32,322 nt of DNA, from NCBI GenBank assembly GCA_014324065.1, contig JACOMV010000032.1, forward strand, positions 1 to 32,322, in the 5' to 3' direction. Source of the stretch: Hormoscilla sp. SP12CHS1 (GTDB lineage Bacteria; Cyanobacteriota; Cyanobacteriia; Cyanobacteriales; Desertifilaceae). How positions within the stretch are numbered: the first letter of the stretch is position 1; the number at the start of each line of letters is the position of its first letter. Below the pieces are notes generated by a model that was not told the origin of the DNA, searched no databases, and saw only the letters and a list, made by a program, of their open reading frames with translations. Shown piece by piece: positions 3,172 to 30,735 of this stretch. The translations under genes and the position numbers were made by a program.

Positions 3172-3740
3172 ATGAAACATGAGTATTATACCCCAGCCCA
3201 GGCAACTAACCTTTACCGGAGTACATCGGTGAGTCCCGACTAAGATGGGAGCGAGGAGGAAAAATCAAATCGTACAGGACACCAGTTGGGCGGCGCCGTT
3301 TCCTCAAAGGGGAAATTGTGCAGATTTGCAGGCATCACGTTACCAACTCCAACTATTGGCTATGCAAGGGTCTCAAATTATTCCCAACATAAAGATATTG
3401 AGCGACAACTTGAATACTTGCGCTACCACTATTCAGAAGCGTAATTTATTTCATAAATTGTCGGAGGGCTTAATTTTAGACGGCGAAAATGTAAGTCCTT
3501 TCTGAAACGAATTGTCAAGCAAGCTATCCAGCGGCTTGTCGTTGCCCACCGCAACAGACTCAGCCCTAAAGGCTACGAACTGGTTGAGTGGCTATGCTAG
3601 TACAATGCAGTCCAACTCGTGGTTCAGATCAGTCCAGAGCAAGAGCTTGTTCCGGATACTTTGTCCAGCATCCACTGCTTCAGTTCTCGGCGCTACGGCT
3701 TGGCTTAGTACCGAAAAAAAATCAGCGATAAAATACGAGA
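3172..3740 (+). pseudogene. tnpA: IS607-family serine recombinase (TnpA) remnant with N-terminal MerR-like HTH
   Basis: Frame-stitched: MKHEYYTPAQATNLYRSTSVSPD*; WERGGKIKSYRTPVGRRRFLKGEIVQI; IVGGLNFRRRKCKSFLKRIVKQAIQRLVVAHRNRLSPKGYELVEWLC*YNAVQLVVQISPEQELVPDTLSSIHCFSSRRYGLA*YRKK. Confidence 0.85.
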
Positions 3741-4900
3741 AGAACCCCTTCAAAAAAAGCCAAAAGGTTCCGCCTAACAGCATCCTAAAAATCCCCTTAT
3801 TCCCCGAGCCAGAACTTCATGCTATTTGGAAGCAATGGATGGCAGCTTATCGCTGGGTTTACAACCAATGCGTAGAGTTCTATAACTCCAACCGAGTGTT
3901 GGCTGAAGGGCAATCTTTAGACCAGTATATACAAGGGTTGCAAAAATTACCAAAAAATCAATGGACAAAATGCTTGGCGTCAATCTTGCAAAGCTAATGG
4001 TGGCAAGATTTTGCTGCGGTTTAGATCCTGTAGAAGCAAATCGCAAGCTATTCAGTTTAAGAATGACGCTTACCGAAATGGCACTTGGTTTACCTCAAAG
4101 ATTGGTAACCGGAAATTCACTGTTGCTAAAGGCTATGAACTGCCCGTTAATTGCGTTTACGGTACGGAACTGGTCTATCAGCGCGGGCAGTGGTTTGCTT
4201 GCTTTCCTCAGTATGTACCAGTAGTAGGTACTGGTTCTAACAAAGTAATTGTGCTCGACCCTGGAAACCGCACTTTCCTGACTGGCTACGATGGTGAAAA
4301 TATCCTATAAATTGGCAAGGGCGACATCGGGCGGCTAACCAGGCTGTGCCTGCACCTTGACAAAATAATCGGGAGAAAAATGAAAGCCACTGGCAAAGCT
4401 AATAAGCGTTTGCAGTACAAACTGAACAAAGCAATTGAGCGGTTGCAGTTTAAGATCCGCTCGCTCGTAGATGACCTACATCGGAAAGCTGCAAGTATGC
4501 TTGTTAATAGCTACAAGCTGATATTTATACCCACTTACCAAACTTCGCAAATGGTCGTCAAAGCCAACCGTAAGATTAATAGAAAGTCAGTTAGAAATAT
4601 GCTTACGTGGGCAATGGGTAGATTTGCTTCTCACTTGGAACAGGCAGCAAAGCGAAAAGGTGTACTAGTAGTGCGCTGTAATGAAGCTTACACTAGCAAA
4701 ACTTGTCCCCTTTGCGGTCACATTCACAAAAAGCTAAGTGGTTTTAAAGTTCACTTTTGCCCGGCTTGCGGTCATAAAGCACGCTCCGGGCCCCCTCCGC
4801 TGCGAGGATTGGGTAGGCGCTCTCAACATCATGTTGAGGGCTTTGCAGGCTGTCGCCTTCGATGTCGGAAATGGCGTTATTACTATTTCTGATGCCGATG
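3704..4900 (+). pseudogene. tnpB: TnpB (IS607/IS605-type OrfB, RuvC-like nuclease) remnant
   Basis: KIPLFPEPELHAIWKQWMAAYRWVYNQ (N-terminus), VIVLDPGNRTFLTGYDGE (RuvC-I), KRKGVLVVRCNEAYTSKTCPLCGHIHKKL...FCPACGHKA (zinc ribbon), DWVGALNIMLRALQAVA (C-terminus, other frame); split over several ORFs. Confidence 0.9.
4781..4807. repeat. Family B repeat ACGCTCCGGGCCCCCTCCGCTGCGAGG
   Basis: Shared with 18187-18215 and 18507-18538; lies between CPACGHKA and DWVGALNIM of TnpB. Confidence 0.85.
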
Positions 4901-5083
4901 TTATACTTGCGCCTGATATTAGCTTTGTGAGGGTTAAAGGCAGCACAGTGTCACTAACAGAGAAATTCTCAGTCAAGTCAGACAGAATCTCGCTATATGA
5001 GGCTGTACAGCAGCCCGAAGCGATCGCACAATCGGATATTGGGAGTTGGTTGACCTGAAAGTGATAGCCCAGTAGCTGGCCCT

Positions 5084-5126
5084 GAACAGCGGAGGGGGCG
5101 TTACCCGGGGAGCTGGCAGATAGACA
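5084..5126. repeat. Family C repeat (CAGCGGAGGGGGCGTTACCCGGGGAGCTGGCAGA)
   Basis: Near-identical to GCAGCGGAGGGTTCGTTACCCGGGGAGCTGGCAGACAG at about 18528-18568. Confidence 0.8.
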
Positions 5127-5375: not shown

Positions 5376-5805
5376 ATGAAAAACAAAAAACTATCGTTCG
5401 CAAGAAAATCATCCAGAGATCGCCGCTTTTATACAATATGAAGCGAGATGTCCAGAATCATTCAATGTCAACATTCATGCTGATGATGAGATGTTCACCT
5501 TTCTCCTGGATGCCAGGGCGTTCCCAGGCGGAGCCGTGGGAACGAGGGCGATCGAGACCGGGCCCTGTTGGCTTATTTCAAGTCAGGACAAGAGGTCATG
5601 ACCCGAGTAGAGCAAATCATCAATTGGAAGTTTAAGGGCTGGGATAGGATGATGGAATCGGCTTTTCTGGATTTTGCTTGCGGTTACGGGCGGTTTACGC
5701 GATTTTTGGTGCAAGAAATGTCCCTCGATCGCATTTTGGTGTCTGATATTTACTCTGAGGCAGCAAGATTTGTATATAATAGTGCGGGGAGAATACGAAG
5801 ATAAA
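5376..5805 (+). pseudogene. Class I SAM-dependent methyltransferase remnant
   Basis: RCPESFNVNIHADDEMFTFLLDA (frame 1), then LAYFKSGQEVMTRVEQIINWKFKGWDRMMESAFLDFACGYGRFTRFLVQEM (frame 0); FLDFACGYGRFTRFL resembles SAM motif I; truncated afterwards. Confidence 0.75.
5519..5544. repeat. Family A palindromic repeat CGTTCCCAGGCGGAGCCGTGGGAACG
   Basis: Copies at 18135-18160, 18455-18480, 24562-24586, 24698-24723. Confidence 0.85.
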
Positions 5806-18021: not shown

Positions 18022-18098
18022 AACTAGGTGTTAGGCGCTAGGGGTCTGTTGGAGTTACCATCCTACATTAGCAGCTAAGGAGTGAGACCATCTATATA

Positions 18099-18215
18099 GA
18101 TCGGGTGCATATTGGCGTCGCAGCCGCCCGAACCCGTTCCCAGGCAGAGCCGTGGGAACGAGGGGTCCGGCTACAGGAACAAAGCCCACGCTCCGGGCCC
18201 CCTCCGCTGCGCAGG
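18099..18215. repeat. Composite repeat (A + B modules), copy 1
   Basis: GATCGGGTGCAT...GCCGCCCGAACCCGTTCCCAGGCAGAGCCGTGGGAACGAGGGGTCCGGCTACAGGAACAAAGCCCACGCTCCGGGCCCCCTCC; second copy at 18417-18538. Confidence 0.9.
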
Positions 18216-18416
18216 GGCTAGATGAGAAAAGTGAGATGCACCCTATAGATCTAAATCCTTTGCGATCGCTGGCCAGGAGACAAGGGGTTGTAACGACCAC
18301 AGGATAACTGGTAGGGTGGTCACCGCGGCGAGCATAGCCCACCAGGGACAGCCTTGCAGTTCTGACTGCGAACAGCGCCAGCGTGTCCGATCGCGCCCTA
18401 TCCCCAACAGAAAAGC

Positions 18417-18568
18417 GATCGGGTGCATCCCATATTTGCCTCGCCGCCCGAACCCGTTCCCAGGCAGAACCGTGGGAACGAGGGGCCCGGCTACACGAAC
18501 AAAGCCCACGCTCCGGGCCCCCTCCTCGCAGCGGAGGGTTCGTTACCCGGGGAGCTGGCAGACAGCGA
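18417..18568. repeat. Composite repeat (A + B + C modules), copy 2
   Basis: Near-identical to 18099-18215 at a 320-bp offset from GCCGCCCGAACCC onward, followed by the family C module. Confidence 0.9.
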
Positions 18569-18650: not shown

Positions 18651-19082
18651 TCAAGCTTCTTCAATATGGTGTACCCAGGAAATATTGAGGTTTCTGGCAG
18701 CATCAGCAATTCGCCGATCTGCTGTCCAAAATTCTGCCTCTTGGGACTCAGCTAAGGCAAGGTAGGCAGCATCATAGGCGACGATCTGATTCAGTCTCCC
18801 TGCCCAAATAAGCGCTTGTTGGTGAAGTGCAGGCGTGGGCGGTACTTGGGGAATGTTCATAGATAGAATATCTTGCATATCTTCTACCGCCTCTTCAGAA
18901 GAAATACTCCTGGTTGCAACAGCCTTGCGGAGAGTGGAAGCTACCTCATAAGACCATAAGGTAGGCACTAGCAGTTCTACATTTTGCTGTTCCCATTCTG
19001 CCATCTTGTCGATCGCGGCTTGGGAATAGGGTAGAGAAATCACTAGCGCTATGAATATATTTGAGTCTGGCATGATTTTCAT
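18651..19082 (-). CDS. PIN-domain toxin (VapC-like)
   Basis: 143 aa; MPDSNIFIALVI, LWSYEVASTLRKAV, VAYDAAYLALAESQEAEFWTADRRIADAA. Confidence 0.85.
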   Translation of the reverse strand: MKIMPDSNIFIALVISLPYSQAAIDKMAEWEQQNVELLVPTLWSYEVASTLRKAVATRSISSEEAVEDMQDILSMNIPQVPPTPALHQQALIWAGRLNQIVAYDAAYLALAESQEAEFWTADRRIADAARNLNISWVHHIEEA

Positions 19083-19372
19083 GGTTCACCTCTCATTACC
19101 TTGTCAATTTGTTTTTCTCGTTCGGCCCGGACTTCGGCAACTAGATCCCCTGGATACATACCGTGCTGGCGATGGTATTTGATGCGCCGCTGGGTTAAAC
19201 GATCAAGGATTTCCAAGTTGTGCTGTTTTTGCTTTTCCCGAGTTTCTAGCCCTAAGCGCACCATTTCTTGTGCTAGATCGGAAATGCTGCGACCTTCTTG
19301 ACTGGCCATTTGGGCGAGGGTTTCATATTGTTCTGGAGCCAATAGCACATTATGAGTAGCGGTTTTTGTCAT
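19079..19372 (-). CDS. Ribbon-helix-helix-type antitoxin of the PIN toxin (start taken at MTKTATHN)
   Basis: NVLLAPEQYETLAQMASQEGRSISDLAQEMVRLGLE; ATGA overlap with the toxin start. Confidence 0.8.
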   Translation of the reverse strand: MTKTATHNVLLAPEQYETLAQMASQEGRSISDLAQEMVRLGLETREKQKQHNLEILDRLTQRRIKYHRQHGMYPGDLVAEVRAEREKQIDKVMRGEP

Positions 19373-19448
19373 CTCGACCTCTTCACTATCTGAACTATTG
19401 CTTCTATTGTAGATTATAGCTAGCATGGATGGATATTGTCAAGTCTCC

Positions 19449-21965: not shown

Positions 21966-21995
21966 TTGTCAATTCGTAATTTTTATTAAGTATCG

Positions 21996-22096
21996 TTTGT
22001 AGTGAGGACTTTAGTCCTCATCCGCGTTTGTAATGAGAACTTTAGTCCTCATCCGCGAGTTAGGGAGATAAGGACTAAAGTCCTTACTACGAACCT
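21996..22096. repeat. Family E hairpin repeats (three copies)
   Basis: 31-bp direct copies at 21996-22026 and 22027-22057 (TTTGTAGTGAGGACTTTAGTCCTCATCCGCG / TTTGTAATGAGAACTTTAGTCCTCATCCGCG); third AAGGACTAAAGTCCTTACTACGAAC at about 22070-22094. Confidence 0.9.
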
Positions 22097-23550: not shown

Positions 23551-23660
23551 GATTAGCCTCATGGCCCGCCGTGGGTTAAAACCCACGCGCGTTACCAGGC
23601 GGGAGCCAGGTTTCGAGGCGCCAAGTGGGTTAAAACCCGACGGGTTTTGACCGCACCCAA
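23551..23660. repeat. Composite of family F hairpin (CGTGGGTTAAAACCCACG) and family D palindrome
   Basis: GATTAGCCTCATGGCCCGCC also at about 19938; D module related to 2226 and 7811. Confidence 0.8.
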
Positions 23661-24482: not shown

Positions 24483-24557
24483 AAAAGAATTTTGAATTCC
24501 GCGCAGCGGCACTAGGCACCGCCCACCCTACCAATTATAGCTGCTGGAGATATGATT
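24483..24557. repeat. 75-bp perfect direct repeat, copy 1
   Basis: AAAAGAATTTTGAATTCCGCGCAGCGGCACTAGGCACCGCCCACCCTACCAATTATAGCTGCTGGAGATATGATT; identical to 24741-24815. Confidence 0.97.
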
Positions 24558-24740
24558 CCCTCGTTCCCAGGGAGACCCTGGGAACGAGCAATCTGAGGCT
24601 CTGCCTCTTGTGAGCTTGTGATTTCTGGGACTCCTATGTGCTCCGCCGTCGAGGCCAGGAGGCAGAGCCTCAACGGAACGTGACCAGGGAGACAACTCGT
24701 TCCCACGGATCAGCCTGGGAACGAGGGGCCCGGCTACATG

Positions 24741-24815
24741 AAAAGAATTTTGAATTCCGCGCAGCGGCACTAGGCACCGCCCACCCTACCAATTATAGCT
24801 GCTGGAGATATGATT
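24741..24815. repeat. 75-bp perfect direct repeat, copy 2
   Basis: Identical to 24483-24557. Confidence 0.97.
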
Positions 24816-30620: not shown

Positions 30621-30735
30621 TAGTAAGGACTAAAGTCCTTGCACTCCGGAAACACTTTAGTGTTTACTACGAACCCGGGAAACACTTTAGTGTTTACTAC
30701 GAACCCGGGAAACACTTTAGTGTTTACTACGAACC
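30621..30735. repeat. Family E hairpins: AAGGACTAAAGTCCTT plus three tandem 30-bp units (AAACACTTTAGTGTTTACTACGAACCCGGG)
   Basis: AACACTTTAG recurs at 30651, 30681 and 30711 (period 30). Confidence 0.95.

Follow-up and report, generated by a model that had tools for sequence, protein, structure and literature searches.

The window, the whole 32,322-nucleotide stretch analysed here, is contig C32 of a Hormoscilla genome (the source genome) with a GCGATCGC-rich composition and a size of 5.0 Mb in 573 contigs. At positions 18123-18205 and 18443-18525 lie two blocks that are 96% identical over 83 nt at a spacing of 320 bp. Each block carries module A, GAGGGGYCCGGCTACANGAACAAAGCCC and module B, with module C added in the second, as the first-pass annotation had described. 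The limits drawn in that annotation were too short, however, and the repeated units are two copies of a MITE family, termed M1, that span 18103-18243 (141 bp) and 18421-18560 (Table 1). The window also includes: (i) a degraded IS605-type TnpB gene (3512-5058), whose HTH and TNB domains fall on different ORFs and whose zinc-ribbon region is interrupted by a lone module B, (ii) further copies of modules A and C, and (iii) two minus-strand genes (18651-19426), one with a PIN domain and one a weak match to ribbon-helix-helix genes, which lie ~90 bp from copy 2 and likely form a toxin-antitoxin pair. No Rfam family reaches its gathering score in the window. Comparisons were made with two genomes of the same genus, G001 and G002, which share ~95% identity with the source genome over most shared DNA. 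Module, TIR and TSD counts were taken over 1.6 Mb of source sequence (~1/3 of the genome), while the core count was taken over the whole 5.0 Mb.

Table 1. Repeat features of the window, with positions on the forward strand.
Feature	Position (strand)	Remarks
Left target-site duplication TATAGATC	18095..18102 (+)	Exact match to 18244-18251; single TATCGATC at the empty G002 site
M1 MITE copy 1, complete, 141 bp	18103..18243 (+)	TIR - H1 with A - linker - H2 with B - TIR; orthologous G002 locus without insert; TIRs GGGTGCAT..ATGCACCC
Module A replacing the H1 loop, copy 1	18136..18162 (+)	Boundaries as in ~30 other filled loops; empty state TAAA
Core linker GCTACAGGAACAAAGC, copy 1	18170..18185 (+)	On the reverse strand, GTAG immediately precedes H1
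Module B within the H2 loop, copy 1	18187..18212 (+)	Empty H2 is AGCCCGCCTGCGCGGGCT
Right target-site duplication TATAGATC	18244..18251 (+)	Alignment to the empty G002 site
M1 MITE copy 2	18421..18560 (+)	Without right TIR and target duplication; 139 bp missing from the orthologous G002 site
Module A within the H1 loop, copy 2	18456..18482 (+)	
Core linker GCTACACGAACAAAGC, copy 2	18490..18505 (+)	
Module B, 5' part, within H2 of copy 2	18507..18525 (+)	
Module C joined to B, copy 2	18526..18559 (+)	B+C composite also in L042, L044 and L092
Lone module B, clean 25-bp insert	4780..4804 (+)	Breaks the frame of the TnpB gene in the zinc-ribbon region
Lone module C	5087..5116 (+)	Just downstream of the degraded TnpB gene
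Lone module A	5519..5546 (+)	
Module A plus half of a core (to ~24742)	24698..24725 (+)	A, then GGGCCCGGCTACATGAA

The M1 family has inverted ends (GGGTGCATCTCA) and target duplications of 8-9 bp. In an extended alignment the left end reads GGGTGCAT(C/A).. and the right end ..ATGCACCC. A second family, M2, has other ends (GGGTGYGGTCA) and duplications that are mostly 9 bp. Within the 1.6 Mb of source sequence, 11 of 19 M1 end pairs and 20 of 27 M2 end pairs are flanked by an 8-9 bp TSD, compared to 0.14 and 0.04 expected, respectively, when right flanks are shuffled. The M1 and M2 pairs span 68-377 bp, are non-coding and are present in dozens of copies; an empty M1 is ~101 bp and consists of TIR, H1, linker, H2 and TIR. 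One M2 copy of G002 has a 9-bp TSD at a site that is empty in the source genome. Both families thus combine the TIRs, short length, lack of coding capacity, many copies, TSDs and empty sites in relatives that are typical of MITEs. They share the non-coding nature, size (~70-350 bp), TIRs, TSD and copy number of prokaryotic MITEs (e.g., Nezha, a MITE of cyanobacteria; PMC3733652) but differ in their cargo, a REP-like doublet in which the loops are swapped for other repeats. A combined TIR and ORF search of ~1.6 Mb of the fragmented source genome and of the relatives' loci found no parent transposon of M1 or M2, and among TIR pairs with a TSD at spans of up to 3.2 kb none bears M1 or M2 ends together with a transposase gene. 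Half of an M2-type end (GGGTGCGGTCAAAACCCGTCGGG) is noted on the minus strand of the window at ~23630-23658.

Both M1 and M2 carry a core in which two hairpins, H1 and H2, are joined by GCTACANGAACAAAGC. The 5.0-Mb genome has 150 occurrences of the linker YCCGGCTACANGAACAAAGC (20 bases, no more than 2 mismatches) and 0 of the reversed control; thus, the repetition of this linker is not due to chance. The empty core hairpins are CCGAACCC-TAAA-GGGYCCGG for H1 and AGCCCGCCTGCGCGGGCT for H2. The core is also found without TIRs and with other H1 stems (CCCACCCTAAAGGGTGGG, GATACCCTAAAGGGTATC and CGCAGGTTAAAACCTGCG). All 25 copies in the alignment have a paired H2, and at four of its five pairs both sides have changed; these rows were chosen for having stems, and the linker count given below serves as the unselected check. 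Covariation is not claimed for H1, as MAFFT places its variable stems in poor register. On the reverse strand of the source copies, TTTGTTCNTGTAG and H1 provide a hairpin with an adjacent 5' GTAG that is dispersed and forms dimers, as do the GTAG REPs and REPINs, although GTAG is replaced by ATAG in some species. A unit of core and flank is tandemly amplified in the source genome (C186, L198 4450-4800, compared with L300) and is present as one copy in G002.

A search of the source genome for Y1 transposases gives four hits. Two of these, at the ends of contigs C114 and C146, complement each other as halves of an IS200-like gene; they carry two and three adjacent doublets and are probably parts of one gene. 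A match to the 3' end of a group II intron (RF00029; L205 1-160, C114) scores 34.1 bits against a gathering score of 40 bits (E 3.7e-5) and is on the strand opposite to the Y1 gene half. Since this intron-like sequence adjoins the C114 half, the Y1 gene of the source genome may be inactive. Close relatives of its protein are not seen in G001 and G002, where the best match is 44% and cores are abundant; the nearest relatives are cyanobacterial with ~60-70% identity. At 20 cyanobacterial loci, for which the Y1 relatives were gathered by protein sequence alone, the linker (counted without any stem requirement) has 48 occurrences within the 10 kb next to the Y1 gene and 15 within the remaining 100 kb, and the reversed pattern has 0. 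Of the 48 gene-side linkers, 40 have an H2 stem of 6 bp or more, compared to 0.7% of random sequences. With stems required, doublets reside beside the Y1 gene in 18 of the 20 loci and on both sides in 11, mostly in opposite directions.

The Y1 protein has the motifs DHVHLL, FFKWQDGYG and YIKNQVIHH, which follow the pattern (DHVH, WQ, YI(K/R)NQ..HH) of TnpA Y1 subclass 1.2, an assignment based on the motifs given in PMC6006769. It scores above the cut-off of the IS200 model NF033573. The two halves, when joined, reach 30.4 bits against the REP model NF047646, well below the cut-off of 80 that marks a class 2 RAYT, and L228, a close relative, has no hit to this REP model. L228 is homologous to TnpA proteins of solved structure (2f4f, 2a6m of ISHp608 and 2xm3). 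Similarly to the subclass 1.2 proteins surveyed in PMC6006769, the Y1 proteins share these motifs, are ~135-148 aa, and occur in cyanobacteria at low copy number. By contrast, while TnpA Y1 subclass 1.2 is reported to be mostly devoid of typical terminal structures (PMC6006769), the doublet adjoins the gene in most of the cyanobacterial loci examined here.

The core shares with the GTAG REPs/REPINs and their RAYT proteins (PMC3733652, PMC3116915) the dispersed hairpin doublets, the GTAG beside the hairpin and the inverted placement around a Y1 HUH gene. Anabaena variabilis is a known case of REP dimers that lie within longer palindromes (PMC3733652). The core differs in that its protein partner is IS200-like and not a class 2 RAYT, its two hairpins are unlike each other and joined by a conserved AACAAAGC linker, and its GTAG is ATAG in places. 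By analogy to the REP/RAYT and IS200/IS605 systems, the Y1 protein would act on the doublet. The association with a RAYT transposase suggested in the first-pass annotation is, thus, real in kind for the core that lies between A and B, whereas no such link is found for modules A, B or C. The genome has only the four Y1 hits, and the class 2-like RAYT among them (C2:47392) shows no doublets of its own. This second Y1 gene (L077 7338-8123; C2:47338-48123) has an M1 copy with module A ~150 bp upstream.

The modules are short (~27 bp for A and 25 bp for B) and reside in the loops of the core. Module A takes the place of TAAA in H1; modules B, C and D take the place of the H2 loop; and further modules are found inside the loop of A itself. 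Loop classes, assigned automatically in the 150 source cores, are: (i) for H1, TAAA-like or empty (93), A (26), A with a nested insert (7) and other (24), and (ii) for H2, empty (74), B (23), reverse C (19), D (AATGTCC.., 10), B+C (3) and other (21). The main loop combinations are all found in M1, M2 and bare cores. The junctions of A are constant in ~30 cores (GAACCC to the left, GTTCCC...GGGAACGAG for A itself and GGG to the right), at least three A subtypes occur at one H1 position, and A in cores is always in one orientation. The B+C composites of L044 and L092 retain the MITE right end. In the composite of copy 2 (18507-18560), the pairing predicted from the first-pass reading is possible and corresponds to the minimum-energy fold, but its stability is no better than that of shuffled sequences (z = +0.63).

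Modules A, B and C are also found apart from the composite, so that the refuting condition of the first-pass annotation, modules that never occur apart, does not apply, and the earlier suggestion that they are independent units is supported. The 1.6 Mb of source sequence has 99 A-like palindromes, of which most (~70-77) are outside cores, together with ~30 B and ~24 C outside cores by a core test so strict that a few of those counted are really cores. Within the window, the separate copies of B, C and A reported near 4781, 5084 and 5519 are present as such, whereas that at 24698 is A joined to half a core and no lone A. This site lies between the copies of an exact 75-bp direct repeat (24483-24557 and 24741-24815), which surrounds 183 bp with two A palindromes and the half core, itself cut short by the second repeat copy. 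The repeat could be a long duplication from a staggered break. Some A palindromes are centred in long unrelated inverted repeats (L131 533, L088 1836, L166 1923, L091 5485 and L203 512).

Loops change in place, as three orthologous cores common to the source genome and its sister G001 differ mainly in loop content. At L325 (G001) and L167 (source, C140), A in G001 corresponds to TAAA in the source genome within shared flanks. At L308 (G001) and L181 (source, C292), A corresponds to TAAAA and the source side is also without the M1 left end. At L292 (G001) and L176 (source, C234), an empty H2 corresponds to C, with a small neighbouring change as well. The L318/L194 pair also resembles such a difference but was left out of the count, as its source side is a contig end. 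In G002, the L325/L167 site has 751 subject bases per 771 query bases, the length expected without A; A was thus most simply gained in G001, although three unrooted genomes leave the direction unproven.

Several explanations of these arrangements were weighed. The first-pass annotation proposed a block duplication. As a local event, this would mean that a composite pre-assembled from modules was copied 320 bp away via recombination or slippage. The high identity of the blocks and their like order and orientation agree with such an event, but the window copies are 86% identical to each other while each is 91-92% identical to copies elsewhere. Copy 1 moreover has an 8-bp TSD of its own, and the copies are unlike in H2 content and right end. 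The orthologous G002 locus is without both copies: the copy 1 site has one TATCGATC instead of two TATAGATC, and ~180 bp beyond that site the 139 bp of copy 2 are absent as well, with the intervening host DNA largely present. Since each copy is nearer to copies elsewhere and G002 is without each at its own site, block duplication is rejected as highly improbable and the two copies are, judging from these alignments, separate M1 insertions. Precise loss in G002 is an alternative to insertion, but the TSD around copy 1 speaks for insertion. For copy 2, which is without a TSD, the simplest reading is that its right end (TIR and TSD) was lost by later deletion. The core itself might instead be read as a family of intrinsic transcription terminators under selection, as the reverse strand has a GC-rich hairpin followed by TTTGTT (AGCCCGCGCAGGCGGGCTTTGTT) that is terminator-like in shape. 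This reading is unlikely given that the core is found on both sides of Y1 genes in inverted orientation, is embedded in MITEs with TSDs and differs in presence between sister genomes; termination could be a side effect of the core.

How loops come to be filled is less clear-cut. Exchange between MITE copies, by gene conversion or homologous recombination, would by itself suffice for the loop swaps if primary insertions were rare and old, a reading that is plausible but somewhat short of probable. It is consistent with the occurrence of every main pairing of TIR type with loop content, the many near-identical copies in each genome, orthologous swaps whose modules are widespread in other copies anyway, and the change beside the loop at L292/L176. 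At L325/L167, however, a linker base and an unusual left flank are unchanged despite the loop change, such that a conversion tract would need to be very short; these unchanged neighbours favour events confined to the loop. More doubtful is targeted insertion at the loop step, in which each of A, B, C and D would be an ultra-small mobile element in its own right that prefers hairpin apical loops, perhaps at a single-strand or cruciform stage. The constant boundaries of A where it replaces TAAA, the A subtypes at that position, orthologous cores filled in one genome and empty in the other, the nesting of modules within the loop of A and the clean insert of the lone B are in accord with this mechanism. 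The single orientation of A within cores, by contrast, is what would be expected if few founders had multiplied through copying or gene conversion. Module A is found at the centres of other palindromes in 5 of 70 cases compared to 1.8 expected, a weak excess; thus, a general preference of A for hairpin loops is poorly supported.

The two blocks very probably result from two hops of a mobile element built in layers, with an M1 MITE outside, a Y1-linked two-hairpin core inside and loops filled by modules. M1 probably moves by DDE-type cut-and-paste on its terminal inverted repeats, catalysed by a putative transposase; the observed parts of this step are the ends, the 8-9 bp target duplications and the empty site of the sister genome. 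The M1 interior, a REP-doublet-like two-hairpin element, is or was presumably copied as single-stranded DNA by the Y1 protein, and its observed counterpart is the core that, in many cyanobacteria, flanks IS200-like Y1 genes in inverted orientation. The tiny repeats A, B, C and D fill the apical loops of H1 and H2, and other modules the loop of A, as seen in the empty and filled states and in the differences at orthologous positions. Loop filling is predicted to leave the stems, and so mobility, intact. The filled loops would spread through MITE transposition and probably also through gene conversion or recombination between copies, and the window copies would have landed independently, 320 bp apart.

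The SDRs of Nostoc are reportedly nested in each other, in minitransposons and in themselves. Compared by description, these SDRs (Elhai et al. 2008, Genome Res 18:1484; cited in PMC3733652 and PMC3116915) are reportedly likewise dispersed cyanobacterial repeats of 20-30 nt that nest mutually and in minitransposons, and modules A, B and C resemble them in their presence inside and outside cores and in the nesting within the loop of A. The present system goes beyond the Nostoc SDRs in its host structure (the two-hairpin core with its Y1 gene), in loop replacement and in the orthologous filled and empty states. The closest precedents are the REP-RAYT pairs, MITEs and Elhai's SDRs; as far as the compared literature shows, the doublet linked to subclass 1.2 Y1 genes and the orthologous loop-state differences are new. 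A class of mobile sequences of 25-30 bp may spread by replacing hairpin loops, stacked loop in loop on a two-hairpin scaffold, and this scaffold would be a hitherto unrecognised DNA substrate for the 'orphan' subclass 1.2 Y1 proteins of cyanobacteria, a proposal that is speculative at present. The subclass 1.2 Y1 transposases gain a concrete candidate DNA partner that is testable in vitro, and the orthologous filled and empty loops open the old question of how 25-bp repeats move to direct tests. In one element of 100-250 bp, two mobility systems that are unrelated to each other appear in layers, with DDE-type ends on the outside and HUH-type hairpins on the inside.

At 30643-30735 and 21994-22094 the window also has short arrays in which units of 30-31 bp are repeated in tandem, with the palindromes AAACACTTTAGTGTTT and AGGACTTTAGTCCT; the AGGACTTTAGTCCT palindrome family is frequent in the source genome.
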